A stretch of 64,000 nucleotides of DNA, from assembly GCF_002923755.1 (NCBI RefSeq), contig NZ_PGFZ01000001.1, positions 1,129,176 through 1,193,175 of the forward strand, in the 5' to 3' direction. This DNA comes from Methylovulum psychrotolerans (GTDB lineage: Bacteria; Pseudomonadota; Gammaproteobacteria; Methylococcales; Methylomonadaceae). This document shows positions 4,129 to 52,968 of the stretch, piece by piece. Position numbers and translations under genes: made by a program. Every line of letters begins with the position of its first letter. The first letter of the stretch is position 1. A model generated the notes under the pieces. That model saw only the letters and a program-made list of their open reading frames with translations, had not been told where the DNA came from and ran no database searches.

Positions 4129-4150
4129 GACTTTACTCCTAAATTATTGT

Positions 4151-4526: not shown

Positions 4527-5354
4527 CTAAAGGTTTTGAAGTCTTTTACAATACTGGTTTATTAAATGACCATTAATGTTGCTTGTAATAAGAGGATGCC
4601 TACAAAGCATTATAAGATAATCAACAACCCATTTATACTTTGGATAAATTTGAGTATCTGTGTAAATGGATTTTTCTATATTTTCAACTATCGCCCCTAA
4701 CTTATTCTCATCTTGAAATGCGTAACTCAAATAGTTTATAAATAACGCCACATCTTTATTTAGACCTTCTATTGGTTGTCCAACCCCCGTCCAGTCAAAC
4801 AAAATATCTCGTTCTTGCAGATTATATTCTGAATTGGAAAGACCATGATTGTTAATTGTATTTATCAGCTCTCCTGCACTTTTAAACTTAAGCGCACTTA
4901 TTAGCTTATTATCTAATATCACCCTAGGATTTATCGCTAACCTTTCCTCTAAGAGATAGGCATTAATATAGGCAGGCCCTACAACTTGACTCTTTTCAGC
5001 ATTAAAATATGCTTTTCCTGAGGATATTGCACCTCTTAACCAAATGTTCTTTTCAGCCAATTTGAATTGTATTTTTTGTATAGCTATGCAAAGTTGCCTT
5101 AAGTTATTAAGGTTTTGACTATCATTAATATCCATTGGTATAGCAATGATAACTGAGTCACTAATTGTAATTGTAGCTATTTCTTTTTTTAATTCAAAAC
5201 GGCGAATACCATAAGTAACCTCTTCAATAAGCTGAAAATATTCGCTTATTTTTTTCTTATCTTTTGGCGCCTTACTCATCACCAATTCTTTGAATCCTAA
5301 TACATCAAGAAAAGCTACAAAATAATCAGAATACGGAACATTATCGCTAATCAT
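4527..5354 (-). CDS. Class III nucleotide cyclase-like protein
   Basis: 275 residues, no signal or membrane segment. The order of motifs matches a class III adenylate/guanylate cyclase homology domain. FVAFLDVLGF carries the first metal-binding Asp (D17). ITISDSVIIAI carries the second Asp (D66). LRGAISSGKAYF stands for the usual 'RIGIHTG' strand, and VVGPAYINAYLLEERLAINPRVILD for 'GPAVNLAARLE...P..ILV'. Both metal Asp are present, so it may be active. Its single domain resembles stand-alone cyclases of the Pycsar anti-phage family, but base specificity cannot be read from this sequence. It sits in an AT-rich island within the EPS locus, with a membrane-protein gene 725 bases downstream beyond the MITE and the 65-residue orphan. 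Other cyclase-fold proteins of unknown role share this pattern. Confidence 0.6.
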   Translation of the reverse strand: MISDNVPYSDYFVAFLDVLGFKELVMSKAPKDKKKISEYFQLIEEVTYGIRRFELKKEIATITISDSVIIAIPMDINDSQNLNNLRQLCIAIQKIQFKLAEKNIWLRGAISSGKAYFNAEKSQVVGPAYINAYLLEERLAINPRVILDNKLISALKFKSAGELINTINNHGLSNSEYNLQERDILFDWTGVGQPIEGLNKDVALFINYLSYAFQDENKLGAIVENIEKSIYTDTQIYPKYKWVVDYLIMLCRHPLITSNINGHLINQYCKRLQNL

Positions 5355-5445
5355 TTGAAATCCAATAGTAATTTATATCAAAAAAATCACACCAATCTTA
5401 CACCTACAATTATGCCATTAATAATGTAAAACCTTGTTCAAAATA

Positions 5446-6447
5446 TCACTTATACTCAATCAACCCCTGCCGCCGATTTCTCAAGCGGTTATACCAATAA
5501 CCCATCTGCCCTAAAGCAATCGGGATTTGTTGCAGATGCGAATGTAGCCCATACAACAATAAGGTCACGGGTTGGCGGCATTTCCAGCGGGCTTTGTAAG
5601 CCGAACGCACAATCAAAAACAGATAGGCCAGCAGCAAGCCCAGTAACGGCAACACATCGCCCATCAGCACGGCTAAGGCAAGGGCGGCAATGGGCATAGC
5701 CAGTAAAACCCCGGCGTGGATGGCGTTGCGTTTGCATTCGCTGACCCAGAGCGGGAAGTCGGTGTTTTTCAGGCGTTGCGATACTTCCGCATACGCATGG
5801 CCTGCGCGTAGGGCGCGTTTCCAATAGGCTTGCCAGCGGCCCATCGCCAAATCGTGGTCTGTCATGGGCTGGTCGATGTGCAGGATGCTGTGGCCTAAGG
5901 CGCGGATGCGTTGGCACAGTTCCGGCTCTTCTCCGGCGATTAAGTCTTCACTAAAGCCATCGGTCGCCACTAAGACCGAGCGGCGCATCAAGGCATCGCC
6001 GCCGCAAAAATCCGTGATGCCGGGGGCGTAGATCCAATCCAAATCCAAGACCCGATTATAGAGCGTCCGTTCGGGATAACGTTCACGGCGATGGCCCCAC
6101 ACGACGGCGACTTCGGGCTGTTCTGCCAAGGCTTTGAGCGCGGCGGGCAAAAAGTCGGGGTGCAAACGGGTGTCGCCGTCTAAGAATAACACCAGCGGCG
6201 CACTAGCCGCCCGCCACCCGGCATTACGGCCTATCGCCGCGCAAGGCCGGGCGGGGACGACGCGCAAGACTTTTGCGCCGTAGCTGGCCGCCAATTCGGG
6301 GCTACCGTCTTGAGAATTGGAATCGGCATAAATCACTTCAATAGGGCCGCCGATAGGGCTAATGGTTTGGATGGAGGCCAAACATTCGGCCAGACGCTGG
6401 CCTTCGTTGCGGCCTATGACCACGACGGACACGCTAGGGGCATTCAT
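5446..6447 (-). CDS. Family 2 glycosyltransferase with C-terminal membrane segments
   Basis: 333 residues. The GT-A fold start VSVVVIGRNEGQRLAECLASI, the nucleotide-sugar motif YADSNSQDGS and the metal motif LFLDGDTRL (DxD-like) define a GT2 enzyme. FCGGDALMRR and 'EEPELCQRIRALGH' are the acceptor-side motifs. Two or three hydrophobic segments near residues 240-285 anchor it to the inner membrane. Its ATG overlaps the stop of the GT4 gene by four bases (ATGA), so the pair is translationally coupled. It would add a sugar during exopolysaccharide repeat-unit or glucan assembly on the cytoplasmic face. Sugar specificity is not readable. The gene ends next to the AT-rich insert. Confidence 0.87.
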   Translation of the reverse strand: MNAPSVSVVVIGRNEGQRLAECLASIQTISPIGGPIEVIYADSNSQDGSPELAASYGAKVLRVVPARPCAAIGRNAGWRAASAPLVLFLDGDTRLHPDFLPAALKALAEQPEVAVVWGHRRERYPERTLYNRVLDLDWIYAPGITDFCGGDALMRRSVLVATDGFSEDLIAGEEPELCQRIRALGHSILHIDQPMTDHDLAMGRWQAYWKRALRAGHAYAEVSQRLKNTDFPLWVSECKRNAIHAGVLLAMPIAALALAVLMGDVLPLLGLLLAYLFLIVRSAYKARWKCRQPVTLLLYGLHSHLQQIPIALGQMGYWYNRLRNRRQGLIEYK

Positions 6448-39927: not shown

Positions 39928-40380
39928 TTACAACTCAAAATCGGCCGGATTCAAGCCCAATTCCTGAGCAATCTTCTGGGCGACTTTTTTCTCGGTGACA
40001 TCAAAGCTGCCGTCCGCCGCCGCGATGGCGATAATCATGCGGATCAGTAAGCGGGCCGCTTCGACGTTGTTTTTCATCTTGCCTAACGCTTGGTAGGCCT
40101 TGGCTTCGCCAATGTCCTTATCAAACTCCAATTGGCCGATAAAATCGCTAAATGCCTTAATCACATCGCTAGTGGAAAATACCGATAAAGCCTCATTACC
40201 TTCGATGAATTTGAGCATTTTTTGTTTTTCTTCCGCACTGACGCTACCGTCCGCCATAGCAATCAAGGCGGAACCCGCCATGGCGGCATTGAGGAAATCT
40301 TTATTTTTAAATTTTAAGACATCGGTCTTTAGCTCGCTCGCCTTAGATTTTATTTGGCTTAAAAAACTGTCAAAACTCAT
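39928..40380 (-). CDS. terB: TerB family protein
   Basis: 150 residues. The TerB helical fold is recognisable: 'FLNAAMAGSALIAMADGSVSAEEKQKMLKFI' and 'AARLLIRMIIAIAAADGSFDVTEKKVAQKIAQELGL' are the two ADG-containing acidic, metal-binding-like repeats. TerB is a cytoplasmic component of the tellurium-resistance/stress systems that also contain TerD paralogues. It lies at the end of the long minus-strand Ter operon, but 250 bases with a repeat element separate it from the CitE-like gene. It may therefore have its own promoter. Ends at the bidirectional terminator. Confidence 0.88.
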   Translation of the reverse strand: MSFDSFLSQIKSKASELKTDVLKFKNKDFLNAAMAGSALIAMADGSVSAEEKQKMLKFIEGNEALSVFSTSDVIKAFSDFIGQLEFDKDIGEAKAYQALGKMKNNVEAARLLIRMIIAIAAADGSFDVTEKKVAQKIAQELGLNPADFEL

Positions 40381-40436
40381 AATTAGCTCCTGTATTTATA
40401 TAATAATGGCTGGAAAAGTCAGGGCGGCTGCCCTTG

Positions 40437-40607
40437 TAATATAGCTAAAGCACAATAAAATGATGTCGTTCGTGGTGAGCTTGTCCCACAGGGACTTCCG
40501 TTGGTCGTCAGACCACCATAGCCCTTCGACAAGCTCCCCCACAAGGGGGGGCTGGCGACAGGCGAACGGCTTTACAATCAATTTATACTGCGTTAGCTAT
40601 AATATTG
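40437..40607. repeat. Nested inverted-repeat element between terB and the CitE-like gene
   Basis: Outer arms TAATATAGCTAAAGC (40437-40451) and GCGTTAGCTATAATATTG (40590-40607) are imperfect inverted repeats. Inside, GAGCTTGTC (40477-40485) pairs with GACAAGCTC (40528-40536). The inner part resembles widely dispersed bacterial 'CCCTTCGACAAGCTC' repeats. No ORF; it probably inserted into the operon. Confidence 0.5.
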
Positions 40608-40630
40608 TGGCTTGGCTGACGTAAGCCCAA

Positions 40631-41578
40631 TTAACTGGACATATCCGCATAGTCGTCTAGCCTATTAGAAGCTGTGACCCCGTAACAGCTCTGTCGGTTC
40701 AGTATAGTTTTTGCCCATTGCTGATGGGTCGCGACTTCGCACATGGCATTGTGCATCCGAAATACCGCCGGGGCATCGTCATCACTTAAGCTCAAGGCCA
40801 TTTCATAATCATCCCTATCCACGGCATACGCGGCTTCAATCGCGGCGATTTGGTCGGGATGGATGGCGGTTTTACCCGTCAGGCCATGTGCCAAATCCAG
40901 CACAATTTCCTTTTGCAAGGTGGCAGTATCGTTAAGATAATCAAACACGGGGGCGGACAGGGCAAACTGGTAAGGTTTGAAGACCGTCACCAATTGGGCG
41001 ATCACATAACTCATCGGCGTATCATACAAGGTCAGGCCGCGCGGCCTGCGCAAGCCTAACACGTTCATCAAATCATTGCCGCCGATACGCAACATTAAGA
41101 TGCGCGGGAACACATCCGGCTGCACCAGCCGCTCGCGCAAGCGTAGCATGGCTTGGCTATCAAACACGGCGCGAGTCTCTAAGGTGGGCATCACTTTAAA
41201 CGGTGTGCCGTGCAAATGCTGAAAATACGCATCAAACACCTCTTCGGAGAATTTAGGCAATACAAAGCCGTCAATTTTATCTATGGCAGGCAGTTCTAAC
41301 AGCCGCGCCAACACGTCGGGATTGCGTACCCGAATAAAGCGGTAGCGTCCGGCATTATCGGCAAAATCTGGCAAGCACGCGCCTAAATGCTGCAAACTAC
41401 TGCTAATGTCTTGATCCGAAACCGCGTCTTCAGTACAAAAAATCATTGAGCGGAGAAATTTAAGCTTCTCACCGTTGGCGATGTCCACCAAATCCCGCCG
41501 ATGGGCCGGCATATACAGCGGCGCACCCAACATCCACGGCGAAAAGGGTTCAGGAAGCGAGGGATGTAAAAAAGTCAT
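40631..41578 (-). CDS. HpcH/HpaI aldolase / citrate lyase beta (CitE)-like protein of the Ter module
   Basis: 315 residues. The TIM-barrel pattern 'RFIRVRNPDVLARLLELPAIDKIDGFVLPKFS', 'VMPTLETRAVFD', 'ILMLRIGGNDLMNVLGLRR' and 'FALSAPVFDYLNDTATLQKEIVLDLAHGLTGKTAIHPDQIAAIEAAY' is that of the CitE-like lyase family. The E of 'PTLET' and the D near 'FDYLND' are the usual Mg2+ ligands. In Ter-linked biosynthetic modules a CitE-like lyase accompanies StiP, PRTase, HAD and ATP-grasp enzymes; together they are predicted to make a nucleoside-like metabolite. It is translationally coupled to StiP (4-base ATGA overlap). Substrate unknown. Confidence 0.8.
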   Translation of the reverse strand: MTFLHPSLPEPFSPWMLGAPLYMPAHRRDLVDIANGEKLKFLRSMIFCTEDAVSDQDISSSLQHLGACLPDFADNAGRYRFIRVRNPDVLARLLELPAIDKIDGFVLPKFSEEVFDAYFQHLHGTPFKVMPTLETRAVFDSQAMLRLRERLVQPDVFPRILMLRIGGNDLMNVLGLRRPRGLTLYDTPMSYVIAQLVTVFKPYQFALSAPVFDYLNDTATLQKEIVLDLAHGLTGKTAIHPDQIAAIEAAYAVDRDDYEMALSLSDDDAPAVFRMHNAMCEVATHQQWAKTILNRQSCYGVTASNRLDDYADMSS

Positions 41579-42660
41579 AAGGCTATCTCTTTGATTAGGG
41601 CCACGGCACGGTAAGGCAAATCGTTACAGACCACGACCGGAATGGCGCGGGCTTGCGCCAACCACCGCAAATGCAGGGTGGCTTCGGCACTATTATCCTG
41701 TAACAATAATAATCTGGCTTCGCGGCGTAACAACACCCGCGTCGCTTCACCGATGCCCGGTTTAATATAATTGGCTTGGCTGACCTGATAACGTTCCGCC
41801 AAAGCTTTCAGTAGAGCTTGGGCAACGGCTTGCCCAACAAGCTGGGGGGGTGGGCTGAACGGTGTGATAGCGCTAGGCCATTGCTCACCGACACTGTCCA
41901 GAATCGTGTCAATAAAATACCCTGATAAGTCGTGCGGCGCAAATTCTTGGTAGTACAAGCAGCCATGGAAGTCGCCAAGCCCGGCAGTATGCGGGTCGTA
42001 TACCGAGCGGCTGACTAAGCCGGACACGGTGGCGTTTAAGATGCACGAAGGGATGAGGTAGTCTTCCGCCGAAGCCGCCACCGCCGCACTGCCGGACAAA
42101 TCCGCCAGCACATACAATTCGGCGGGGATATTAACCCCATCCGAGACGGCAAACGCGGCCAAGCTGGCGGCCAATTGCCGGGCTATTACGCCTTTGCCCG
42201 TCCAGCCGTCAACAAAGACGATAGTTTCTGGGGCATGGTGTTGCAGGATATGGCGTAAGGCGTTTTGGTCGATGCCGACATCCCGGATAATGGAAATGCT
42301 GTAATGCGCCGCGCCGATACCATAATAACGCTGTAACACCCGCTTGAGCAACACGCCAATCGGCGTACCTGCCCGCGCCAACGACACCAAGGTGACACCG
42401 TGCGGACGGGTCGCGACAATCCCCGCACTCAAGCGGATAATATCCGCCGCCACCCGCTGTTTATTCGCGGCTAAGGCCTGATGGAATAACTGTAGGTAAG
42501 ACTCAGACGGCACCGACTCATGCGAAAGCATTTGGGAATAATGTTTCTGGCCGGATTGGATCAAGGCCTCCTTAACAGCGACCGGGGTATCGCTAATAGC
42601 CATCGGTTTGAGTAAAAACTGCACATCGTCGGCAGGGTAACTTCCTGTGAATGGGGTCAT
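41575..42660 (-). CDS. StiP-family protein (predicted cysteine protease) of the Ter module
   Basis: 361 residues. The sequence 'FTGSYPADDVQFLLKPM', 'LIQSGQKHYSQMLSHESVPSESYLQLFHQAL', 'VTLVSLARAGTPIGVLLKRVLQ', 'HYSISIIRDVGIDQNALRHIL' and 'IVFVDGWTGKGVIARQL' follows the StiP family, found in Ter gene neighbourhoods. The 'VFVDGWTGKG' part also looks like a phosphoribosyltransferase PRPP loop, so the fold may be PRTase-like even though the family is named as a cysteine protease. Coupled by ATGA overlap to the CitE-like gene; starts 93 bases after the crystallin-J1-like gene. Confidence 0.8.
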   Translation of the reverse strand: MTPFTGSYPADDVQFLLKPMAISDTPVAVKEALIQSGQKHYSQMLSHESVPSESYLQLFHQALAANKQRVAADIIRLSAGIVATRPHGVTLVSLARAGTPIGVLLKRVLQRYYGIGAAHYSISIIRDVGIDQNALRHILQHHAPETIVFVDGWTGKGVIARQLAASLAAFAVSDGVNIPAELYVLADLSGSAAVAASAEDYLIPSCILNATVSGLVSRSVYDPHTAGLGDFHGCLYYQEFAPHDLSGYFIDTILDSVGEQWPSAITPFSPPPQLVGQAVAQALLKALAERYQVSQANYIKPGIGEATRVLLRREARLLLLQDNSAEATLHLRWLAQARAIPVVVCNDLPYRAVALIKEIAL

Positions 42661-42753
42661 GGCTTCCAGTGGCGGTAATGGGTTTATTTGATATTCAAAG
42701 ATATTGGCAAGTGCGGGTGGTGTACAACACGCCTAAACCTATCGCGGAGCTTG

Positions 42754-43107
42754 CTATGCCTTAAACTCGTGGATCACGGCAATTTTTCCGACAATATTTT
42801 GGTTAAGTTCAGGCAAATCCTCGGCGGGAATCCACCACTCTGTATGCTGTGCGCCGCCTACTTTTTGGATAGGGTACTTATCCATAAAAGCCTTCTTCAC
42901 GGCAAAGCGTGTGACGCAACCGTAACCGCTCGCTTGGACATTCCAATCGCTAGCAATTTCGATAGCGTAGGCTTCGTTGGTGACAGGATAAAAAATCGGC
43001 TGTTCCGGCAATCTTGGCGGCCAAGCCCGATAATCACTGGCGGCGACCAAGGCTATTTCTTCGGGGCCGGTTGGGCGGAACAGCAGAACCGTTTCAGACA
43101 TGGTCAT
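42754..43107 (-). CDS. Small 'ADP-ribosylation/crystallin J1'-type protein
   Basis: 117 residues. 'LLFRPTGPEEIALVAASDYRAWPPRLPEQPIFYPVTNEAYAIEIASDWN' is the start of a family commonly labelled ADP-ribosylation/crystallin J1; it is followed by 'GCVTRFAVKKAFMDKY.IQKVGG...EWWIPAEDLPELNQNIVGKIAVI'. Despite the label it is too short to be an ADP-ribosylglycohydrolase, and its activity is unknown. It looks like a complete small soluble domain. Located between HAD (32 bases upstream) and StiP in the Ter operon; whether it is a normal member of the module or a passenger is unclear. Confidence 0.6.
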   Translation of the reverse strand: MTMSETVLLFRPTGPEEIALVAASDYRAWPPRLPEQPIFYPVTNEAYAIEIASDWNVQASGYGCVTRFAVKKAFMDKYPIQKVGGAQHTEWWIPAEDLPELNQNIVGKIAVIHEFKA

Positions 43108-43139
43108 CTCCTAAATGTAAGCTAATTTAAGGGTGATTA

Positions 43140-43898
43140 TTATGACACCGCCGCCAATATCGCCCCCAATTGCGTCTGCTTAGGAATTAGCGCGTAATCG
43201 CATAAGGCAAGAAACGGCGCATCAGTGCGGCTATCGCCTGCGGCGAAGGTCAGCAACTCGCCATATTGGTTTTGGTAACGCGCCAGCAAATACGCCACCG
43301 CACTTTCCTTATTAATGCAACGGGGCAACAAGGCCAAATTATTGCCGTTAATATGCCAATACAAACTGCCGTCCAAAACTGCCGGATGCGGTTTGATTAA
43401 GGTATCGAGCAGGTGCTGTAAAATGTCTTCCGTACCCGCACGGTGTTTGACATAGCCATACCAGGTCACACCAAAATCCACTACCAGCCGGGCTTTATAG
43501 CCCTCATCCTGCCGACAATAGGCTTCAATCTCCGCCCACAAGCTGACGAATGGCGCACGGTGCAAGGCTAAGGCTTGCTGCATCTGCGCCATCCACACCG
43601 GGTCGGCTTGGCGCTGCTTATCCAAAATCACCGCCCCGTGGTTAATGACCACTTCCTCCACAAACGGCAATTCCACCCGGGTGAACGAAGCCATTTCCCG
43701 CGCTGTGACCGGCACAATACGGAAGCCTTGGCTCAGCCAATCCCAGAGCCATTGTTGCTTAGCGGTAGCGAAAGAATTGGCCTTACCGTCGGCTAACCGC
43801 GCCCGTACTTGTAGCGCCGGATCAGCCGCGCCATTGGCGCATTTGCGTAAAGTTTGGAACAGGGTGTCGTCAAGGTCGAGAAAAATGTAACGTTGCAT
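43140..43898 (-). CDS. HAD-superfamily phosphatase of the Ter module
   Basis: 252 residues from the ATG at 43898; the longer frame to 43991 overlaps the PRTase gene too far. Motif I FLDLDDTLF (nucleophile and acid Asp), motif II 'VPVTARE' (Thr), and motif IV 'LLTFAAGDSRTDAPFLALCDYAL' (GDSxxD) define a HAD hydrolase. The C2-type cap lies between, as in sucrose-phosphatase or phosphomannomutase-like members. In Ter modules such a HAD enzyme is predicted to dephosphorylate the product of the PRTase/ATP-grasp steps. Its start overlaps the end of the PRTase gene by 29 bases. Confidence 0.85.
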   Translation of the reverse strand: MQRYIFLDLDDTLFQTLRKCANGAADPALQVRARLADGKANSFATAKQQWLWDWLSQGFRIVPVTAREMASFTRVELPFVEEVVINHGAVILDKQRQADPVWMAQMQQALALHRAPFVSLWAEIEAYCRQDEGYKARLVVDFGVTWYGYVKHRAGTEDILQHLLDTLIKPHPAVLDGSLYWHINGNNLALLPRCINKESAVAYLLARYQNQYGELLTFAAGDSRTDAPFLALCDYALIPKQTQLGAILAAVS

Positions 43899-45060
43899 CG
43901 TGTCCGTTGGTCGGGCTAAGTTCAAAACGCGCACTGATCGCTTGCCAAGCGTGCAAACGCCCCAACAATGCCGCACACAAGGGGGTTTCATGGCACAAAA
44001 TCACTTGGCGGTACTGTGCCAAATCGAGATTGTAAAGAAAATTAGGGATGCCGTCGGCATAGTTATCGGTAAATTGGCAGACGGCGGCAATATCGTTGCC
44101 CTGATGGATGGGCGAACGGGTGGTACTTTGTACTTTAACCGCAAACCCCGCCAATTCCAAGGCCCGCCCCAGCATCAGCGCAGGCGCATTGCACTCGCCC
44201 GTGCCTAACACCAACAAAGGGCGCGGGTCTTCCGCCGCCAACAACGGCAACAAACGCCCTATGGTATCGGCTTGCCAACGCAAAGGCGCGTCCATACCTA
44301 AGCGCCCAGGCCAGGCCAACAAATGTTTTTTACACGCCCCGTCACCGGAGACATTGATGGTCACTTCATCCAAGGCGGCATTATAGCTGTCCTCAAAACG
44401 TAACACGCCTTCGCGGAAACACACCCACACCACCGCCACGCCCGCTTCATTTTCCAACGCCGCGCGGTCATCAGGATGGGCAAAGTTAACCAGACTGACA
44501 ATAAAGACTTTTTCCAGTAACGGGTTGACGGTTTGATAGGCCTTAATCAGCCGCAAAAAAGTCTTACCCGTACTGATTTCGTCATCAATCAGCACCAGCG
44601 TCCGCGCTTGCAAAAACTGTTGCCGATGTTCAGGCCGCTCAGGATAATACAGAAAAAAGTCAGTAGCATGACTATGCGCCTCTTCAAACGCCAAATAATC
44701 GTGGCCTTCCAGCACATAACGGGTGGTTTGCAGAAATAACGCCCCCTGCACCCCCTCGTCACTGGCGGCGGCAAACACCCCATAACCCAACCCGGTCGCG
44801 GTCTCCGCCATACCTATCCATACCGAACCCACCCCGACACCATCAGCCAACACCAACCGCGCCAACGCCCGATACGACCAATACATCAAACGCGGCGACA
44901 CCGGATAATGCTTACCCAGCACCTTGCTGACCAATAAAAATTTCCGCTTACTGCTGACCCGCGCGGCAAAACCCAGCAGTCGTTTAAGCGGAATGCGCCC
45001 AGGGCTTAAGTCAAGATGGAGGGTGCCGGTGGCGAGTTGGATGGAGAGTTTTTTGGGCAT
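43870..45060 (-). CDS. Phosphoribosyltransferase-TRSP domain protein of the Ter module
   Basis: 396 residues. The N-terminal half is a PRTase: 'RLVLADGVGVGSVWIGMAETATGLGYGVFAA' and the PRPP loop 'ARTLVLIDDEISTGKTFLRLIKAY' (DDEISTGKT). The C-terminal half (from about residue 265: 'LLVLGTGECNAPALMLGRALELAGFAVKVQSTTRSPI') is the TRSP domain, named for its conserved motif (here TTRSPI). This two-domain protein is a core member of the Ter-linked biosynthetic module, thought to form or cleave a ribosyl-phosphate bond. Starts 23 bases after the second TOPRIM-like gene; overlaps HAD by 29 bases. Confidence 0.85.
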   Translation of the reverse strand: MPKKLSIQLATGTLHLDLSPGRIPLKRLLGFAARVSSKRKFLLVSKVLGKHYPVSPRLMYWSYRALARLVLADGVGVGSVWIGMAETATGLGYGVFAAASDEGVQGALFLQTTRYVLEGHDYLAFEEAHSHATDFFLYYPERPEHRQQFLQARTLVLIDDEISTGKTFLRLIKAYQTVNPLLEKVFIVSLVNFAHPDDRAALENEAGVAVVWVCFREGVLRFEDSYNAALDEVTINVSGDGACKKHLLAWPGRLGMDAPLRWQADTIGRLLPLLAAEDPRPLLVLGTGECNAPALMLGRALELAGFAVKVQSTTRSPIHQGNDIAAVCQFTDNYADGIPNFLYNLDLAQYRQVILCHETPLCAALLGRLHAWQAISARFELSPTNGHDATLHFSRP

Positions 45061-45083
45061 GGGGTCTCGTTAGTTTACAGCGT

Positions 45084-45761
45084 TTATGCTTGGGCCAAAC
45101 CACGCAGTTGGTCTAGCCAGTGTTTAAAATGCCGGCATTCTTGCTCGATTGTGGCAAGCGTGACGTGTCCGGCAATCAGCGGGGCATGGCGAGTTTTTTT
45201 GTAGGCAGGTTTTAAGATGTCTTCCAAGCGTCTGGATGGCTTAGTGTCATAACCATCATTAATGTGTTCGGGGCTTGTAAAGCAAGCCCGCACTTTTTGC
45301 AAGCTTGCCAGATGTTTCTGCCAGTCTGGCTCGGTACGGACTAGAGCCCCGACATCAGAAAACCATAGCCCTTCAAGCTCATGCGGCTGGATATAAGCAA
45401 TAAACCGTTCTGGGCGGCATCCTACATGATTGCTAATGGCTGCTGCTAAAGCCTGTTCCATGATGTCTAAGCGGCCATAGACATCACCGACCCGCTTGGC
45501 TTCGTGAAACATCGGAAAATCGCCCGCCAAACCATATAAATCCAAAAATGTCGTCAGTACCGCTTGCGGATGTTGCCTTAAGGTATTTCTGGCATTAAAT
45601 TTAAGGCGCTCAAAACTGACCGCCCCGCCCTCGGCACCTTTTGATGTCGGCAATAATTGCGGCTTTAAGTATATCTGCGCAGGGCGCAAAGTCGGCGCAA
45701 CAATGTGCTTAATAAACGCTTCTTCACTTTGGCCTTCGGCAAAAACAATCACTTCCACCAT
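45084..45761 (-). CDS. DUF4276-type TOPRIM-like protein, partner B
   Basis: 225 residues from the ATG at 45761, which follows the ATPase stop after one base; longer frames run inside the ATPase gene. 'MVEVIVFAEGQSEEAFIKHIVAPTL' with an early Glu, and 'LTTFLDLYGLAGDFPMF' with the next acidic cluster, fit DUF4276, a TOPRIM-like nuclease-type domain. 'RFIAYIQPHELEGLWFSD' is the third conserved block. Such proteins are usually encoded beside AAA ATPases of the OLD/AAA_21 type, as here. By analogy with AriA-AriB (PARIS) pairs, it may be the nuclease or effector of a defence or stress unit. Activity unproven. Confidence 0.75.
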   Translation of the reverse strand: MVEVIVFAEGQSEEAFIKHIVAPTLRPAQIYLKPQLLPTSKGAEGGAVSFERLKFNARNTLRQHPQAVLTTFLDLYGLAGDFPMFHEAKRVGDVYGRLDIMEQALAAAISNHVGCRPERFIAYIQPHELEGLWFSDVGALVRTEPDWQKHLASLQKVRACFTSPEHINDGYDTKPSRRLEDILKPAYKKTRHAPLIAGHVTLATIEQECRHFKHWLDQLRGLAQA

Positions 45762-45762
45762 T

Positions 45763-46857
45763 TTAAGGCCGCCCACCCAAGACATTGCTTTTCCACAACT
45801 CGCCCAAAGCATATTCTTCCAGCCAACCGGACAATTCCGCCGACGAAAAGCGTTTAAACACGGAAGCATCGTTTTCTTGCTCGACCACGATAACATCTTC
45901 GGGCGACAATTCATTGACCAACTCGACCGATTGCGTGGAGACAATCAGTTGCTTCGTTTCCGCGACTTGTTTAAATATATCCGCCAAGATGCTAATGGCA
46001 TAGGGATGCAAGCCCAGTTCCGGTTCGTCAATCAGAATGGTATCGGGTAACAATTCCACAGGTTGCAACAACAAGGTTGCCAAACAGATAAAACGCAACG
46101 TGCCGTCTGATAAGACATGCGCCTTAAATGGCGTGTCCTGCTGGCCTTTTTGCGTCCATTCCAACTCGATATAATCCGGCGTACCCGGACGCTGGACAAA
46201 ATCACCGAAGAACGGGGCGACCAAGCGGATGGTATCAACAATGCGCTGATAATGGCTAGGATAACCGTTATACAGCATCCGCAAATACGCCGCCAGATTC
46301 GCGGCATCACTTTTTAAGCGTAAGGTATCATTAACCCCGTGGGGTTGCTTAACTTTTGCCCTCTCGCCCGTGTCGTGGAAATGATAGATGCGCCAATTGC
46401 TTATCCAATTTTTTACTTGCCGGGCATAGGGGTCAAGAGAGGTTTTTAAGACGGACTCGTTTCGATTTGTTCCGTGGAAAAAATTTCCCAAAAGCGGAGC
46501 CGCATCATCAAAAAGCGCTGTGTCATTAAGCCCCGTTTCACTTGAAACAATTAAACGGTTGTCATTGGTTGGCACCAACAGGAAACTATAAGTATGTTCG
46601 GCATAAAAAAACTGCCCTAACAATGAGTCAGTACCATTACGGCCAAAATGAAGCAAACTATCCGGCCCGCCTTGGGTTTGCACATAAAGTTGCAAATTTT
46701 GCTCGGCTATTTCCGCTAATAGCCTAAAAAAACCGATAAAGTTGCTTTTCCCCGCACCATTTGCGCCAATCAGCACGTTCAGGTTATTGAGCGGAAAATC
46801 GCGTAATTCACGGATGGATTTATAACCCATTATGGTTAGCGAACTAACGCCGGACAT
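45763..46857 (-). CDS. AAA-family (AAA_21/OLD-like) ATPase, partner B
   Basis: 364 residues. 'LTIMGYKSIRELRDFPLNNLNVLIGANGAGKSNFI' is the SMC/RecF-like start with Walker A GANGAGKS. 'VLSDGTLRFICLATLLL' is the signature-like motif, and 'TILIDEPELGLHPYAISIL' the Walker B with D-loop; 'QLIVSTQSVELVNEL' is the switch region. A variable middle section is of the kind found in defence ATPases. Directly followed by the DUF4276-type gene (1-base spacing) and preceded by the other TOPRIM-like gene (9 bases). It would act as nucleotide-dependent sensor or clamp for its partner. Confidence 0.85.
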   Translation of the reverse strand: MSGVSSLTIMGYKSIRELRDFPLNNLNVLIGANGAGKSNFIGFFRLLAEIAEQNLQLYVQTQGGPDSLLHFGRNGTDSLLGQFFYAEHTYSFLLVPTNDNRLIVSSETGLNDTALFDDAAPLLGNFFHGTNRNESVLKTSLDPYARQVKNWISNWRIYHFHDTGERAKVKQPHGVNDTLRLKSDAANLAAYLRMLYNGYPSHYQRIVDTIRLVAPFFGDFVQRPGTPDYIELEWTQKGQQDTPFKAHVLSDGTLRFICLATLLLQPVELLPDTILIDEPELGLHPYAISILADIFKQVAETKQLIVSTQSVELVNELSPEDVIVVEQENDASVFKRFSSAELSGWLEEYALGELWKSNVLGGRP

Positions 46858-46866
46858 AGCCTCTCC

Positions 46867-47529
46867 TTATCTGTTAATTTGACTATCAGCCAAAGCCAAT
46901 TCCTTAAGCTTACCCAGCAAATAATTAAAGCTGGGCGAGGCGTTGTTATTGATGTCCATGTGTGGGCTAATCGCCTCAGCCCATTGGAATTTTTCCGCCC
47001 CTACCGCTTGCCAGCCCTTCTCTTTTAACGCTTTAGCCCCACCCGGATAAACGGCATCGGCGAGCTTTTCCCAAGTGCCGCAAATGGCATCATGGGTATA
47101 ATTTTTTAACACGGCTTCCTTGGCTTTCGGGTAGGCTGTTTTCAGCGCGGTGCGGTCGCCTAAAAACCACGCCTCGCCTTCTTCCACGGCAATACAAAAA
47201 CGGGTTTCCGGTTGCGGGTTACAAGCCTGTAACAGTGCCAGCAATTCTTGACGGAAGCTTGTTAAACATTTGTCGTCCAAATCACAAACCACAATCACCG
47301 CAGCGGGATAGTTTTGCCATTGCCGACCATAACCCGCCAATAATCTGGGCAGATTATCCAATAAAATACGCTTGCTGGCCTCTACTGCCGAATGCTGCTT
47401 TTTGGGGATACGCCCAACCCCTTTATACGCTTTGACAGCGAAACTATGTTCCTCGCCAATCATTTTCGGGATTAAAATATCCAAGGCCGCTTTGCCTGAT
47501 TGGTCTTCCACGAGTATCTCAAAGTGCAT
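46867..47529 (-). CDS. TOPRIM/DUF4276-like protein, partner A
   Basis: 220 residues. 'MHFEILVEDQSGKAALDILIPKMIG' has the early acidic strand-helix start (E near residue 8). 'YPAAVIVVCDLDDKCLTSFRQELLALL' has the DxD pair after a beta strand. 'RFCIAVEEGEAWFLGDRTALKTAYP' is a third block with 'EEGEAWFLGD' matching the position of 'PHELEGLWFSD' in partner B. This is the acidic layout of TOPRIM-type domains; the family is DUF4276-like but not the same subfamily as partner B. Starts 3 bases after ATPase A, so the pair is co-translated. Likely partner of that ATPase; nuclease activity is inference. Confidence 0.65.
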   Translation of the reverse strand: MHFEILVEDQSGKAALDILIPKMIGEEHSFAVKAYKGVGRIPKKQHSAVEASKRILLDNLPRLLAGYGRQWQNYPAAVIVVCDLDDKCLTSFRQELLALLQACNPQPETRFCIAVEEGEAWFLGDRTALKTAYPKAKEAVLKNYTHDAICGTWEKLADAVYPGGAKALKEKGWQAVGAEKFQWAEAISPHMDINNNASPSFNYLLGKLKELALADSQINR

Positions 47530-47532
47530 AGT

Positions 47533-48828
47533 TTAGCTTGCGTCCAGATAATCGCTATACCACAGCCCTCCTAAAGGCAAGCCCTCGGCCACCATGCTTT
47601 TAACTAAAGCGTCATCACTGGCGCGGCGGATAGTGGCAAAACCATCCGACCCTTTTTCTAAAATCCACACTTCTTCCGGCTCTAACGCATCGACAAAATA
47701 CGGCTGGTGGGTCGTGATAAACAATTGCGAGCCGCCTTTACGGCCTGTCGCGTGGCTGCGGAATTCGGCGGCTAAGGTTTCCAATAATTTATGGTACAAA
47801 CCGTTTTCCGGCTCTTCAATACAGATAAACGGCGCGGGGTCGGGGTCTTCTAAGAGTAGCAAATAGGCAAAGACTTTTAACGTGCCGTCGGACATTTGCG
47901 GGGCATAGAACGGGTCGATAAAGCCTTTATCATTAAAGCGCAACAACAAACGCCCGTCAGAGGTTTTTTCGGTGTCGATTGTGTCTATGCCAGGAATTTT
48001 TTCGGCGATACGGTTTAAGATGCTTTGGAATTTATCCCGATGCTCACGCTCCATAAACTGCACCACATTGGCGAGGTTGTCGCCTTTACTGTTAAGGTGC
48101 TGCTGTACACCTGACAGAGGCAAGGTTCTTGCCGCATCGGGGGTAAAGTAACTGAGATACCAGCTTTCTATAAATTGCCGGAAGGCGACGATTTTGGGGT
48201 GTTCATTCAATGCGCCTAGGGTGGCTAGGCCGAGTTTTCTGGTATCCGCCAGAGTCACTTTTTCCGCTTCTAAAACTTTTTCATCAATTAGCTGTTCAAA
48301 ATCACCGCCAGTAACGTAAATATCAACCGTTTCGCGGTAACTAAAGCCATTAAGTCCCTTGCCCCCCCCTTTACATACAATACCTTTCCCATTTGCCAGC
48401 ATTAAGAAAACCGTAGAATTTTCAAATATATCTTTATTGGGGGTTTGAAAAAGAAGCTCCCGTTCTACGACGGGTCTGCCAAAATCTTCAACGCCAATAT
48501 CGATTACATAGGTTAAGAGAGGCGCATTTTCATCCTCCCTATAAGCAATTGAAAATAAGATATAATCTGTTTGCCCTTGAGAGCGGATTTTTTCAAATCC
48601 CCCCCGCCCACGTAAATCACAGGCTTCTTCTACACCAAACTTAAGGGCATCCGCCAAGAAACCAAACACATCAAACAATGTACTCTTACCGACACCATTT
48701 TTACCAATCACAACCGTCATGGGGGTTAACGGCTCACATCCCTCTCCAATTGTATCGGGCAGTTTGCCTAGAACTACATGTTTTAAGGACTTAAAATTCT
48801 GTATCCAAATCCCCTCAATCCTAGCCAT
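47533..48828 (-). CDS. AAA-family ATPase, partner A
   Basis: 431 residues. 'IEGIWIQNFKSLKHVVLGKLPD' and Walker A 'TVVIGKNGVGKSTLFDVFGFLADALK' open the RecF/OLD-like fold. 'MSDGTLKVFAYLLLLEDPDPAPFICIEEPENGLYHKLLETL' contains the signature and Walker B (EEPENGL), and 'LFITTHQPYFVDAL' the switch His. The family matches ATPases often paired with DUF4276/TOPRIM partners in defence islands. It starts 17 bases after the ATP-grasp gene and ends 3 bases before its TOPRIM-like partner. It is only distantly similar to ATPase B (different middle region), so the two pairs are not a simple recent duplication. Confidence 0.85.
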   Translation of the reverse strand: MARIEGIWIQNFKSLKHVVLGKLPDTIGEGCEPLTPMTVVIGKNGVGKSTLFDVFGFLADALKFGVEEACDLRGRGGFEKIRSQGQTDYILFSIAYREDENAPLLTYVIDIGVEDFGRPVVERELLFQTPNKDIFENSTVFLMLANGKGIVCKGGGKGLNGFSYRETVDIYVTGGDFEQLIDEKVLEAEKVTLADTRKLGLATLGALNEHPKIVAFRQFIESWYLSYFTPDAARTLPLSGVQQHLNSKGDNLANVVQFMEREHRDKFQSILNRIAEKIPGIDTIDTEKTSDGRLLLRFNDKGFIDPFYAPQMSDGTLKVFAYLLLLEDPDPAPFICIEEPENGLYHKLLETLAAEFRSHATGRKGGSQLFITTHQPYFVDALEPEEVWILEKGSDGFATIRRASDDALVKSMVAEGLPLGGLWYSDYLDAS

Positions 48829-48845
48829 AAGCTACCGCCGCCCCA

Positions 48846-49868
48846 TCACACCTTATCCCGCAACACCACAGGCGTGTTAACCTCGGCAATCTTCAAGCCA
48901 TAATGTATCTCAGGCGGGCTAACCTTCTCGCCTTTAAACGCCTGTAAAGCCAACTTGGCAAGGTTAGTCCCCGCCAAGCAGGCCATGCCGAAACCACCCG
49001 ACGGGCGGGGGTTAATTTCCAGCAACCGTGGGCCATCCTTGCCGTTTTTAAACTGGATATTAAACAAGCCGTTCAAATAGTAATGGGCAGTCAAACGCTC
49101 CACCATGCCGGCAATTTCAGCGTTATTGTCAATTTCCTGACCGTGGCCTAATAACAGCGATTTCCGGCGTTGTACCGCACACAGCAATTTGCCGTGCCGT
49201 CCGGCGCAATCGACGCTCCACTCATGGCCGTCCAAATGCTCCATGACCAGCATGGTATCGAACGAGCGGGTATTCATCATGCCTTGCCGCAATTCTTGCA
49301 ACGGGATTTCGTATTCCACGCCTTTTAGCAAATGGGTGATACTGTCGCGGCGGGTGTCGAGAACCCGAAACCCTAAGCCAAATACCGACACCGAAGGCTT
49401 AACGCACAAGCTGTCATGCCGTCTTGACAATTCGGCAACCGCATGGTCGAAAGCGTACAAATTATCGACGGCGATAAACTCCATTGTCTGGGCGACATCG
49501 GGGTCTAGCGCGGCATAAAAAGCCGCTTTGTTATCCAATAAGCTTAAAGTGTCGTAATCCGCCACCGACAGCACTTGAATCCCCAGAGCATGGAACTGCG
49601 CCTGATGCAGGCTAATAAAAGCCGCTTCTTTGCCGGGCCAAAACAAATCAATGCGGTGGCGTTGGCAAAATTCTAAGCACCAATCCAGATAGTCTTGTCC
49701 GACCAGAGCGCTAGGCTCCAGATAGCTCTCGTCAGCGGCTAAAAAAGCCGAAGCGGTGGTGTGGGTGTGGGTGCAGATAATCGTTACGGCACTTGGCCTA
49801 TAGGCCAAGTGCAAATTATTAAAAACCGCACTAATTGTAGAGAATGTTTTATTAAACCAAATGCGCAT
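48846..49868 (-). CDS. ATP-grasp enzyme of the Ter module
   Basis: 340 residues. The ATP-grasp pattern is visible. 'FWPGKEAAFISLHQAQFHALGIQVLS' and 'LLDNKAAFYAALD' form the N-terminal/A domains; 'LCVKPSVSVFGLGFRVLD' is the ATP-binding Lys strand. 'MLVMEHLDGHEWSVDCAGRHGKLL' and 'GLFNIQFKNGKDGPRLLEINPRPSGG' supply the Mg-binding EINPR. In Ter systems such an enzyme acts with PRTase, HAD, StiP and CitE-like proteins and is predicted to ligate an amino or carboxyl group onto a nucleoside-like metabolite. Starts 6 bases after a TerD-family gene; here its biosynthetic partners are separated from it by four inserted ATPase/TOPRIM genes. Confidence 0.85.
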   Translation of the reverse strand: MRIWFNKTFSTISAVFNNLHLAYRPSAVTIICTHTHTTASAFLAADESYLEPSALVGQDYLDWCLEFCQRHRIDLFWPGKEAAFISLHQAQFHALGIQVLSVADYDTLSLLDNKAAFYAALDPDVAQTMEFIAVDNLYAFDHAVAELSRRHDSLCVKPSVSVFGLGFRVLDTRRDSITHLLKGVEYEIPLQELRQGMMNTRSFDTMLVMEHLDGHEWSVDCAGRHGKLLCAVQRRKSLLLGHGQEIDNNAEIAGMVERLTAHYYLNGLFNIQFKNGKDGPRLLEINPRPSGGFGMACLAGTNLAKLALQAFKGEKVSPPEIHYGLKIAEVNTPVVLRDKV

Positions 49869-49874
49869 CAGCGT

Positions 49875-50468
49875 TTAAAGATGGACGACAATTTGTGGCA
49901 GCAAGTTTTCAATGGTACGTCCGGTGCCATTTTCGCCGATAGCGTGCATTTTCCATTCGCCATTGTGGCGATAGAGTTTTGCCATGATTTGCGCGGTATG
50001 CGAACCTTGGGAGCTCAGCGTATAACGGGCGATTTCAGTTTTGCTGGCACTATCGACTATACGGCAATAGGCATTTTCGACCGCATTAAACGTTTGTCCG
50101 GTAAAAGAATTGACCGTAAAAACCAAAGATTTGACATGGGCGGGTACTTTATCCAGCTCAACGATAATTTGCTCGTCGTCGCCGTCACCCGCACCAGTCC
50201 GGTTGTCGCCGGTATGGACGATACTACCGTCTTTGCTTTTCAGATGACCGAAATACACCGTATCCACGGCTTTGTTATTGTCATCAAACATGACGCACGA
50301 GGCATCCAAGTCAATAGACTCACTGTTGCCGCCGCCAAACAGGCCTTTCAACATCCCACCGCCGGATTTTTTCGCATCCCAACCCAGGCCCATAACCACT
50401 TTGCTTAAGGCCCCGCCGGATTCTTTGGACAAAGAGATTTTTTGTCCTTTTTGTAAACTGATAGCCAT
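49875..50468 (-). CDS. TerD-family protein (TerX/TerZ-like)
   Basis: 197 residues. 'MAISLQKGQKISLSKESGGALSKVVMGLGWDA' is the TerD start. 'IDLDASCVMFD' and '[27 protein letters not shown]' carry the Asp-rich Ca2+-binding loop. 'AYCRIVDSASKTEIARYTLSSQGSHTAQIMAKLYRHNGEWKMHAIGE' closes the fold. An insert with GGGMLKGLFGGGNS in the first loop marks it as the TerZ/TerX branch rather than TerD/TerE. Cytoplasmic, probably part of a Ca2+-dependent Ter complex at the membrane. Gap of 49 bases after the TerA-like gene. Confidence 0.9.
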   Translation of the reverse strand: MAISLQKGQKISLSKESGGALSKVVMGLGWDAKKSGGGMLKGLFGGGNSESIDLDASCVMFDDNNKAVDTVYFGHLKSKDGSIVHTGDNRTGAGDGDDEQIIVELDKVPAHVKSLVFTVNSFTGQTFNAVENAYCRIVDSASKTEIARYTLSSQGSHTAQIMAKLYRHNGEWKMHAIGENGTGRTIENLLPQIVVHL

Positions 50469-50517
50469 TTTATTTGCTCAATAGTGAATAATTATTGTTA
50501 ACTGCATGATGTCCAAA

Positions 50518-51729
50518 CTATTTGCTACCGCTACGCCATTTCATCCCCCATTGATAATGCTTATCCAGCTTCTCGTGGCCGCCAAAATATTCGTTCAGCT
50601 TCATCAGCTTTAACGCGCCATGGCTATTTTCTAACATCGCTATGGCACACATATTCGAGTCCTTGCCTTGGGAATCCAAACGCACTTCAATGACCGGATG
50701 GTCGGGGACGGTCAGGGTAACAACGGCATCAGCCTGTGTCCAACTCACCGCACCTTCGTAGATAAAGGCAAAAATGCAAATGCGCCGGATACGGTCAAAA
50801 TACTTGCCGTTAATGTACAGAAACTCGCCCTCGGCAACTGCGCCGGAACGGTCGTCACCCGCGAGGTGGATATAAGGCACATCTTCGTAAGACCCAAAAC
50901 AATTGCCTAACGCTTGCACCACATGCTTAGTGCCATCACTGAGTTCGTATAAACACCCCAGATCAAGGTCAACCGCCTTATCGGCACTCTTGCCGCCAAA
51001 AAAACCTTTTTTCTGGGTTTGCTGCGCCGACCAATTCAAATTGCAGACAATGCGTCCGTAACCACTGGCCGTTTTAGGTTTATCCAAAGAAATTTTGTCG
51101 CCACGTTTTTCTAAGGTGATTTTTGACAGGGATACTTTAGGCTCTACTGGCTTTGGCGGCTGGACTTCCTCTGCCACTTCCGCGCCAAAATGCTTGACCA
51201 ACGCCGCCAAACCGCCGTTAAAGCCTTGGCCTATCGAATTGAAACGCCAAGTGCCGTCTTTGCGGTACAACTCGCCGACCATCAGGGCTTTTTCATCGGC
51301 GAAATCGTTGCCGTTAAAAGCAAACCGCGCCACTTCTTGCCCTAATCCGGTCAACAGGCGCAAATACCCTGCTTGCATCTGGCGCATCGTGCCGTTGCCA
51401 TCCACTGCCGCCGTAAACACCAAGCGGTCAACCGTGGCAGGCAAGAGCGCCAATTGGCAAGTAAATCCTGCCATATCGCCTGCCGGTGCCGCTAAAGCGA
51501 CAGCCCCGCACGGTGTTTGGGGCTGGTTGAAAAAGGTCATATAGCGGTCATCAGAGAGCTTCTGTTGGGCATCCAGACCAAAACAAGCAAAATCTACCGC
51601 TACCGACAGACCTGCTATAGACACACCTATCTGGAAGCGCTCTGCTGGCGCATAGTTAGCGAACAGTTGCTCTAGGGCGACCCGCCGCCCTTTTGCCAGT
51701 ACCTGAGAGTCGGCATTCAGGGCGGACAT
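50518..51729 (-). CDS. terA: TerA-like protein with two TerD-type domains
   Basis: 403 residues. The first domain (about 1-190) is a diverged TerD-like domain: 'VDFACFGLDAQQKLSDDRYMTFFNQPQTPCGAVAL' and 'MVGELYRKDGTWRFNSIGQGFNGGLAALVKHFG'. A linker with PPKPVEPK leads to the second (about 205-400) with 'ISLDKPKTASGYGRIVCNLNW', 'KAVDLDLGCLYELSDG', 'YIHLAGDDRSGAVAEGEFLYINGKYFDRIRRICIFAFIYEG'. Two-domain architecture and length match TerA of enteric ter operons. It sits between two TerD paralogues (20 and 49 base gaps). Confidence 0.85.
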   Translation of the reverse strand: MSALNADSQVLAKGRRVALEQLFANYAPAERFQIGVSIAGLSVAVDFACFGLDAQQKLSDDRYMTFFNQPQTPCGAVALAAPAGDMAGFTCQLALLPATVDRLVFTAAVDGNGTMRQMQAGYLRLLTGLGQEVARFAFNGNDFADEKALMVGELYRKDGTWRFNSIGQGFNGGLAALVKHFGAEVAEEVQPPKPVEPKVSLSKITLEKRGDKISLDKPKTASGYGRIVCNLNWSAQQTQKKGFFGGKSADKAVDLDLGCLYELSDGTKHVVQALGNCFGSYEDVPYIHLAGDDRSGAVAEGEFLYINGKYFDRIRRICIFAFIYEGAVSWTQADAVVTLTVPDHPVIEVRLDSQGKDSNMCAIAMLENSHGALKLMKLNEYFGGHEKLDKHYQWGMKWRSGSK

Positions 51730-51749
51730 ATCGTCACGTTCCTCGTCGT

Positions 51750-52325
51750 TTAAACATTAACGCCAAAGGAAGTGGCCAATGGCCCTAAACCGCCCGCAAA
51801 GCCTTGGCCGACCGCCTTAAATTTCCAATCGCCACCATTGCGGTAAATTTCGCCAAAAATCATTGCGGTTTCGACAGAAGCGTCTTCACTTAAATCGTAA
51901 CGGGCAATTTCTTGGCTATTTTCTTCGTTGACTATACGGATATAAGCGCGGCTGACTTGGCCGAAATTTTGTTTACGGGTTTCGGCATCGTAAATCGTAA
52001 CCGTGAACACCACTTTGTCCAAATCGGCGGGAACGGCGGACAATTGGACTTTGACCACTTCATCGTCGCCGTCGCCTACGCCTGTGGTGTTGTCGCCCAT
52101 GTGTTCGACCGCACCGTCGGCAACGACCTTATTGTTAAAAAAGCAGAAATCGCTGTCAGAACGGACTTTACCGTCCGCTTTCACCAAAAAGGCGCTCGCA
52201 TCCAGATCGAATGCCGCCCCATCGGTAGCGCGTGCGTCCCAGCCTAAGCCGACGATGATTTTATTCAAGCCTGGCGCTTCTTTGCTTAAGTTTACGTTGC
52301 CGCCTTTTGTCAGTGATATTGCCAT
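51750..52325 (-). CDS. TerD/TerE family protein 2
   Basis: 191 residues. Canonical single-domain TerD/TerE pattern: '[32 protein letters not shown]', '[28 protein letters not shown]', '[53 protein letters not shown]', and '[36 protein letters not shown]'. The D-rich GDNxTGxGDGDDE loop binds Ca2+ in characterised members. Close paralogue of the upstream TerD protein. Which one corresponds to TerD and which to TerE is not decidable from sequence alone. Confidence 0.93.
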
Positions 52326-52392
52326 GATGCCATGTCCTCTTTAGTTGTTTTTAGACTATTAAAATTATAACTTTATACTAAAATTGTTAAAA

Positions 52393-52968
52393 CTATACAT
52401 TAATGCCATATTGGCGAGCCAAAGCCGCCAAGCCGCCCGCGTAACCTTGGCCGACCGCACGGAATTTCCACTCGTTAGTGTGGCGGTAAATTTCGCCGAA
52501 AATCATCGCGGTTTCGATAGAGGCATCTTCGCTCAAATCAAACCGGGTGACTTCCACGCCCGAATCTTTATTGACGATACGGACAAAGGCTTGGCTAACC
52601 TGACCAAAATTTTGCTTGCGGGGTTCCGCGTCGTGGATGGTCACGGTAAAAATAACCCGTTGGATGTCGGCGGGAATTTTATCGAGCAAGACGATAATGG
52701 ATTCGTCATCACCGTCGCCTGCACCCGTGCGGTTATCGCCAGTATGCTCGACCGAACCGCAAGCGGATTTGGGCTGGTTATAAAAAATAAAATCGGCATC
52801 CGAGCGGACTTTACCGTCGCTGTTGACCATAAAGGCACTGGCATCCAAATCAAAATCCGCACCGTCCGTAGGCCGGGCATCCCAGCCTAAACCGACGATA
52901 ACATTTTTTAGGCTCGGGTCGGTTTTGGACAAACTGATGTTGCCGCCTTTGCTTAAGGAAATACTCAT
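52393..52968 (-). CDS. TerD/TerE family protein 1, first gene of the Ter operon
   Basis: 191 residues from the ATG at 52968 (GGAG 10 bases upstream). A TTG three codons earlier is not favoured because the family begins M(A/S)ISLSKGGN. The pattern '[38 protein letters not shown]', '[42 protein letters not shown]' and '[36 protein letters not shown]' is full-length TerD/TerE with an intact Ca2+-binding loop. As first gene of a minus-strand operon of some 13 kb it marks where the operon promoter should lie (52.97-53.2 kb). Confidence 0.93.

Follow-up and report, generated by a model that had tools for sequence, protein, structure and literature searches.

The Ter biosynthetic operon, which was reportedly described by Anantharaman, Iyer and Aravind in 2012, and HEC-01, a PADLOC candidate system, are the closest described counterparts of the locus presented here. 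The name HEC-01 goes back to its discovery route, embedding in Hma operons, which is not a sequence criterion. We analyzed 64,000 nucleotides (nt) from the methanotroph Methylovulum psychrotolerans (RefSeq assembly GCF_002923755.1, contig NZ_PGFZ01000001.1, positions 1,129,176 to 1,193,175, forward strand; genome size 5.19 Mb), hereafter the window. It contains a Ter operon with two unlike HEC-01 pairs in tandem, each consisting of an ATPase gene (ATP1, ATP2) and a small DUF4276 gene (TOP1, TOP2), between the genes for an ATP-grasp enzyme (AG) and a phosphoribosyltransferase-TRSP protein (PRTase or PRT). This AG-PRT junction was found to be a recurrent cargo slot of the Ter operon in this bacterial family.

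A link between Ter and defence, which a preliminary description of the window had considered new, had already been proposed: the available passages of PMC7824862 portray Ter as a system that signals against incoming threats, phages included, and report Ter genes carried by jumbo phages. Those of PMC10250203 and PMC11090510 discuss the link of Ter with defence domains, and phage inhibition appears as a known ter trait in the passage from PMC8123226. What is new here is a fixed slot together with a mostly Ter-resident ATPase lineage in which residues 96-193 have sharply diverged. In the literature passages retrieved, most of them listings or the starts of abstracts, we found no paper on Ter operons that contain HEC-01 or DUF4276 pairs, nor a test of a phage-defence role for the Ter biosynthetic module. 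HEC-01 is listed merely as detected in the passage from PMC12724379; that from PMC12988326 reports several HECs as active, including HEC-06, and does not name HEC-01.

The operon lies on the minus strand in the order TerD, TerD, a TerD-domain/TerA-like gene, TerD, ATP-grasp, ATP1, TOP1, ATP2, TOP2, PRTase, HAD, StiP, C-C lyase and TerB. The gaps around the inserted genes are 17 nt (ATP-grasp/ATP1), 3 nt (ATP1/TOP1), 9 nt (TOP1/ATP2), 1 nt (ATP2/TOP2) and 23 nt (TOP2/PRTase); this order and all five gaps agree with the preliminary description. Such spacing suggests that the pairs are co-transcribed with the Ter genes. By Pfam, the window holds the Ter enzyme set, namely ATPgrasp_Ter, PRTase_2 with TRSP, StiP with PELOTA, C-C_Bond_Lyase and TerB, along with four TerD-domain proteins; the HAD member has weaker support (S6PP/HAD matches). 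It differs from the described Ter operon in the cargo at the AG-PRT junction.

Both pairs consist of a HEC-01A-type ATPase followed by an adjacent HEC-01B/DUF4276 partner, which is the composition and order of HEC-01. HEC-01A or HEC-01B was the best PADLOC model for all four inserted proteins (partners: PDLC04205, 7.2e-96, and PDLC04188, 6.7e-69), and Pfam detects AAA_21 in both ATPases and DUF4276 in TOP1 (2.9e-8) and TOP2 (5.2e-49). Unlike the pairs for which HEC-01 was named, those in the window lie in a Ter biosynthetic operon. The motifs GKNxVGKS and EEPENGLYH are conserved in all 16 ATP1 sequences compared. The sequence profile of ATP2 matches OLD, AriA, GajA and PtuA, but also SMC and ABC-transporter chains. 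When solved structures were searched by sequence, TOP1 had no match below E 0.2, TOP2 none at E ≤1 and ATP1 none below 0.07. The resemblance to PARIS (AriA-AriB) that had been suggested for the pairs did not hold at the level of family: AriA models score far below HEC-01A for the ATPases, and the small proteins match DUF4276 only, with no match (E up to 0.1) to DUF4435, which we take to be the AriB domain. No AriB name occurs among the PADLOC matches of TOP1 and TOP2, the presence of an AriB model in PADLOC being unchecked. From the OLD family nucleases the pairs differ in that ATPase and TOPRIM are encoded by separate genes and, for the second pair, in the missing second Asp of DxD in TOP2. 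The genome of the window also carries a further TOP2 relative (G000:C12:185160-185819; 30% identity, E 3e-17).

To define the insertion site, 201 genomes of the family were searched for ATPgrasp_Ter; 75 had a match at E ≤4.7e-29, and one locus was fetched per genome (loci and genomes are numbered with L and G, respectively). By tblastn, L075 and L076 were the ones among these 75 with no other ter gene. The junction was measurable, with ATP-grasp and PRTase on the same piece, in 50 of the 75 loci. The other 25, without PRTase, were excluded from the AG-PRT count: the sequence after ATP-grasp was shorter than 9 kb in 13 and longer than 9 kb in 12, the latter including L076, which is not a ter operon. 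For AG-PRT, 17 of 50 operons had a distance of 600 bp or more, versus none at TerX-AG (0/72), PRT-HAD (0/45) and StiP-CitE (0/40; 0/157 together). HAD-StiP reached this length in 3 of 40 operons and represents a second, rarer slot. The 1.2-1.8 kb inserts present at TerD2-TerX (18) and CitE-TerB (9) were not counted, as a TerA-like match lies inside every one of them (18/18 and 9/9).

HEC-01 genes fill eight of the 17 occupied slots, and in one of these (L102) TOP1 is broken. A PtuA-like ATPase accompanied by a PIN-domain protein occupies one slot, another holds a protein with a PDC-S68-like C-terminal part plus two ParE-like toxins, and AIM24 alone is found in five (one by Pfam, the rest by BLAST cluster). 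The last two are L090, with an open reading frame (ORF) with a weak Mrr_N match plus a 109-amino-acid ORF, and L092, with no ORF of at least 80 amino acids. HigBA genes occur in the slot as well. All 41 ORFs called in the slot, from 22 loci, are on the operon strand. The AG-PRT junction is a recurrent, direction-preserving cargo slot of the Ter operon of this family. Random, location-blind insertion is disfavoured, with cargo limited to AG-PRT and, less often, HAD-StiP, and with TOP1 in the Ter slot in 10 of the 18 family genomes that have a TOP1 match of at least 40% identity. In the TOP2 search, PRTase adjoined 3 of the 30 loci brought in (L129-L158). Outside the family, AG-PRT was empty or nearly so (-4 to 186 nt) in five of six operons with both genes in order (L159, L162 and L250-L252). 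In the sixth, from the Pseudomonas aeruginosa plasmid pSE5419-2, the junction contains a gene for a trypsin-like peptidase (L160:11072-12211); three of the 164 plasmid records bearing ATP-grasp were inspected.

Several loci show other arrangements. In L033, L043, L046, L056, L074, L085, L086, L093, L094, L097 and L099, ATP-grasp is followed by more than 9 kb without a PRTase; these 11 Ter loci possibly have a split operon or a slot with a larger insert. The HAD-StiP cargo (L038, L084, L089), with names read by eye, includes PIN and AbrB-like genes, an MBL-fold-like protein, a Y1-type transposase and others, and in L038 there are weak matches to the mad2 and ZorA profiles.

ATP1 and/or TOP1 occupies the slot in 11 of the 201 family genomes, that of the window included, and in five genera; among these 11, ATP1 of G194 is cut off by a contig end after its start, and G197 has only part of TOP1. 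ATP2/TOP2 is in the slot in three family genomes of one genus. Thus, homologous pairs do adjoin Ter genes outside this strain and a unique insertion is rejected. The recurrence in several genera that the preliminary description had named as a test was borne out, although among slot-bearing family genomes the full order with both pairs was seen only in the window. Broad conservation of the arrangement was not found either. A scan of 398 genomes of the phylum gave 12 with PRTase_2 (the window's included), and tblastn detected no HEC-01 gene on the 11 pieces fetched.

The pairs also occur away from Ter. In the genome_contigs collection, we inspected the best 80 of at least 498 confirmed ATP1 relatives, with flanks of up to 9 kb per side and shorter ones for many. 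Five of these 80 loci have a Ter operon context, all in records named as methanotrophs, and 75, from many phyla, have no Ter gene on the fetched piece. Free copies in the family lie between ABC-transporter genes (L264) or beside one (L262, L169), and between HsdS and HsdR of a type I restriction system, where an additional gene is also present (L272). In L265 the pair comes two genes after that for a glutamate-cysteine ligase. Of 75 listed neighbours of free relatives, 51 were scanned; the 24 omitted, by no fixed rule, were mostly short or near-duplicate and one was very long. Four of the 51 match HmaA, four HmaB and two PglZ, and four helicases also match the BrxHI and DrmD models of BREX and DISARM (best E for BrxHI, 0). 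An ATP1/TOP1 pair was found on a plasmid typed as conjugative and HEC-01 pairs on four IMG/VR contigs, a further match (L244) being a fragment; phage records gave one match to ATP2, at 25% identity. HEC-01 pairs are portable modules. TOP1 is split across frames in G097 and in a free copy in G065.

Some individual relatives are also worth recording. The IMG/VR contigs bearing HEC-01 pairs (L243/L247, L245, L246 and L248) are 36-39 kb long and perhaps prophages. In a Nitrospirales genome (L236:9001-14557), an ATP1/TOP1 pair lies about 1.9 kb from a distant ATP2/TOP2 pair, and no Ter gene was found on that piece. Three of the best 80 ATP1 relatives (L172, L196 and L235) have no downstream TOP1 match, and the partner may have been replaced.

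The history of ATP1 was examined in a tree of 33 proteins, built with a careful search from sequences picked after a quick tree of 99 (L165, identical to L111, was omitted). A fully supported branch separates seven Ter and two non-Ter copies, all from the family, whereas the Ter copies L101, grouped with L111, and L102 fall among the mobile forms. The Ter label needs five changes on this tree, and a single Ter clade was rejected (approximately unbiased test, p-AU 5.9e-6). One ancient insertion followed by vertical inheritance is therefore rejected for all ATP1 copies jointly, but not for the clade of nine. The count of label changes does not separate gain from loss; the simplest reading of the tree would be three arrivals at Ter and two departures. 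If the ATP2 pair and the PtuA-PIN pair are added, ATPase-nuclease pairs would have arrived at one junction on five separate occasions. Resident-clade ATP1 partners two TOP1 subtypes with about 45% mutual identity (L103, L069, L084 and L122 versus the window, L064 and L101), and partner exchange is suggested because the TOP1 proteins of G004 and G136 are closer (85%) than their ATP1 proteins (77%).

The mostly Ter-resident clade is marked by a hypervariable segment of ATP1. Eight of its nine members were compared (28 pairs; one fragment was left out), with a mean identity of 36% at residues 96-193 versus 84% at residues 194-431. In 265 mobile pairs of matched C-terminal identity, the mean for 96-193 is 66%; the distributions overlap, in that 32 of the 265 lie at or below the top resident pair (58.5%), and none goes down to 36%. 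For the 36 mobile pairs from the family only, the mean in this segment is 73%, and their C-terminal identity (89%) is somewhat higher. Between the window and G182, the nonsynonymous rate (dN) is 0.22 for residues 1-95, 0.33 for 96-150, 0.58 for 171-193 (18 codons) and 0.033 for 194-431, where the synonymous rate (dS) is 0.62. Positive selection on 96-193 was not shown in this comparison, with dN/dS below 1 throughout and dS near saturation. ATP2 gave a similar contrast in a single pair, the two Ter-embedded copies of the window and G024, with 33% identity and dN 0.86 at residues 61-150 versus 83% and 0.107 at 151-364. Two non-Ter members of the resident clade have the altered 96-193 segment, and the Ter copies L101, L102 and L111 retain the mobile form. 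Because of these five copies, Ter location as the cause of the alteration is unsupported, and the change is a mark of lineage, not of location. Residues 96-193 may be a cue-sensing segment.

A TOPRIM-like fold is predicted for TOP1 and, less firmly, for TOP2, as the preliminary description had assumed. In VIA-align, OLD C-terminal TOPRIM domains take the first four places for the TOP1 model and for the TOP2 model alike. In TOP1, E8, D83 and D85 are invariant in 38 of 38 aligned sequences, so that the N-terminal Glu and the DxD, which we take to be the TOPRIM catalytic motif, are kept. In TOP2, E10 and D75 are invariant in 23 of 23, but at position 77 Asp never occurs; 21 sequences have Tyr there and two have Phe. 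Nuclease activity is presumed for both, on better grounds for TOP1 than for TOP2.

The explanation that we favour, and regard as reasonably probable, is that two separate HEC-01-type modules were captured at the ATP-grasp/PRTase junction of the methanotroph family's Ter operon and are read from its transcript, most likely acting autonomously. Each module would combine an OLD/ABC-class ATPase with a TOPRIM-like DUF4276 partner. The ATPase would keep the effector inactive, as in known pairs of an OLD ATPase and a nuclease, and upon sensing a phage-made or infection-related cue would release or activate the nuclease. The Ter operon would then provide expression, perhaps stress-linked, rather than the trigger.

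Several points weigh against this explanation. The anti-phage function of the pairs and sensing by the ATPase are deductions, and the literature passages contained no functional test of HEC-01. Foldseek alone gave no significant fold match for the TOP1 or TOP2 model, and TOP2, lacking the second Asp of DxD, does not have the complete TOPRIM motif. In 11 of the 75 loci, all with ter genes, PRTase is absent for at least 9 kb after ATP-grasp, and the slot is hence unscored. Some Ter links may have been missed, as many pieces are short and the relatives are the best 80 of at least 498. Moreover, Ter residence in seven of nine members of one ATP1 clade is above expectation for a random passenger and, together with the altered 96-193 segment, makes some adaptation to the Ter setting possible.

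Such adaptation could go further. The resident HEC-01 ATPase lineage may have remodelled its sensor segment (ATP1 96-193), with conservation of the nuclease motif and of the core that hydrolyses ATP. In that case the Ter operon would serve in defence and contain an exchangeable guard slot, and the occupant of this slot would monitor either the Ter pathway or a phage factor that changes fast; we regard this as a tentative idea, somewhat unlikely as it stands. A related but unlikely possibility is a guard or back-up role, in which the Ter module itself responds to phages or toxins and the pairs sense that it is inhibited or that the same attack is under way, much as PARIS responds to anti-restriction proteins (a logic set out in the available passages of PMC12409349 and PMC12839542). 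It would explain why HEC-01 pairs occur in restriction-type, Hma-like and Ter operons, as seen in the HmaA, HmaB and PglZ neighbours and the HsdS/HsdR locus, and it fits the jumbo-phage Ter genes and the anti-phage role of Ter proposed in the passages from PMC7824862. However, pairs also lie by ABC-transporter genes and a glutamate-cysteine ligase gene, and Ter-embedded pairs of several origins need not have a common trigger.

Direct gating of the nucleases by a nucleoside-like Ter metabolite or by TerD Ca2+ signalling, the model of the preliminary description, appears improbable. Although the genes are co-directional and tightly spaced and the ATPase clade with the altered segment is mostly Ter-resident, embedding does not imply such gating because most near ATP1 relatives (75 of the best 80) were on pieces with no Ter gene found, some in ABC-transporter or type I restriction surroundings. 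The segment follows lineage in L101, L102, L111 and the two non-Ter members, and Pfam shows no extra ligand-binding domain in either pair. Autonomous action is more likely than control by Ter chemistry, an unproven idea. It is similarly doubtful that the pairs bring no defence benefit and are neutral or selfish passengers, such as addiction modules of the toxin-antitoxin kind, held in a permissive intergenic slot, for despite the ParE-like and HigBA genes in the same slot and the broken copies (TOP1 of G097 and the free G065 copy), the important acidic residues are invariant in TOP1, as are EEPENGLYH and the Walker A lysine in ATP1, and dN in ATP1 194-431 is low.

Coordinates of all features are given in the table. 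The HAD-StiP spacer of the window (42661-43139, about 480 nt), at the position of the second slot, has no operon-strand gene called; its ORFs are one of 117 amino acids on the operon strand (42754-43107) and one of 145 amino acids on the opposite strand. A sigma-70 scan gave 28 promoter-like sites versus 15.7 expected and was not used as evidence. Near the TerB end, on the other strand (36546-38825), lies a gene for a protein that combines DUF4915 with TPR repeats and weakly matches glycosyltransferase-9. Elsewhere, positions 2001-6000 have a G+C content of 0.37-0.40 versus about 0.50 in most of the window and are possibly foreign DNA.

Table. Features of the Ter operon and its cargo in the window (positions counted from its first nucleotide; values are E values).
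Feature	Position	Strand	Basis or remark
ATP1, OLD/ABC-type ATPase, HEC-01A	47533..48828	-	PDLC04182 1.6e-173; AAA_21 6.7e-36
ATP1 residues 96-193, hypervariable in mostly Ter-resident clade	48250..48543	-	pairwise identity
TOP1, DUF4276 protein, HEC-01B, TOPRIM-like (predicted)	46867..47529	-	E8 and D83xD85 kept
ATP2, OLD/ABC-type ATPase, HEC-01A	45763..46857	-	PDLC04175 3.6e-139
ATP2 residues 61-150, divergent between two Ter-embedded copies	46408..46677	-	window vs G024
TOP2, DUF4276 protein, HEC-01B, probably TOPRIM-like	45084..45761	-	D-x-Y instead of D-x-D
ATP-grasp enzyme, Ter biosynthetic module, upstream slot border	48846..49868	-	PF15632 5.8e-43
PRTase_2-TRSP, downstream slot border	43870..45060	-	PF15609 2.6e-58; PF12500 6.9e-14
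TerD-domain protein 1	52393..52968	-	PF02342 3.3e-87 (searched from 52977); ATG 52968, in-frame TTG 52977
TerD-domain protein 2	51750..52325	-	PF02342 3.9e-85
TerD-domain protein, 403 amino acids, TerA-like (TerA in the preliminary description)	50518..51729	-	PF02342 4.8e-37
TerD-domain protein 3 (TerX/Z-like in the preliminary description)	49875..50468	-	PF02342 2.4e-57
HAD-fold hydrolase	43140..43898	-	PF05116 (S6PP) 9.2e-6; start MQRYIF inferred, longest ORF from 43991
StiP cysteine protease with PELOTA domain	41575..42660	-	PF11202 1.5e-99; PF15608 2.5e-27
CitE-like C-C bond lyase	40631..41578	-	PF15617 1.7e-94
TerB	39928..40380	-	PF05099 7.8e-22

If the slot is real, a conserved stress operon serves as a site where unrelated pairs of ATPase and nuclease land repeatedly. 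The slot would then be a simple marker for further defence candidates in Ter operons and would offer a direct way to ask whether these operons join in phage defence.

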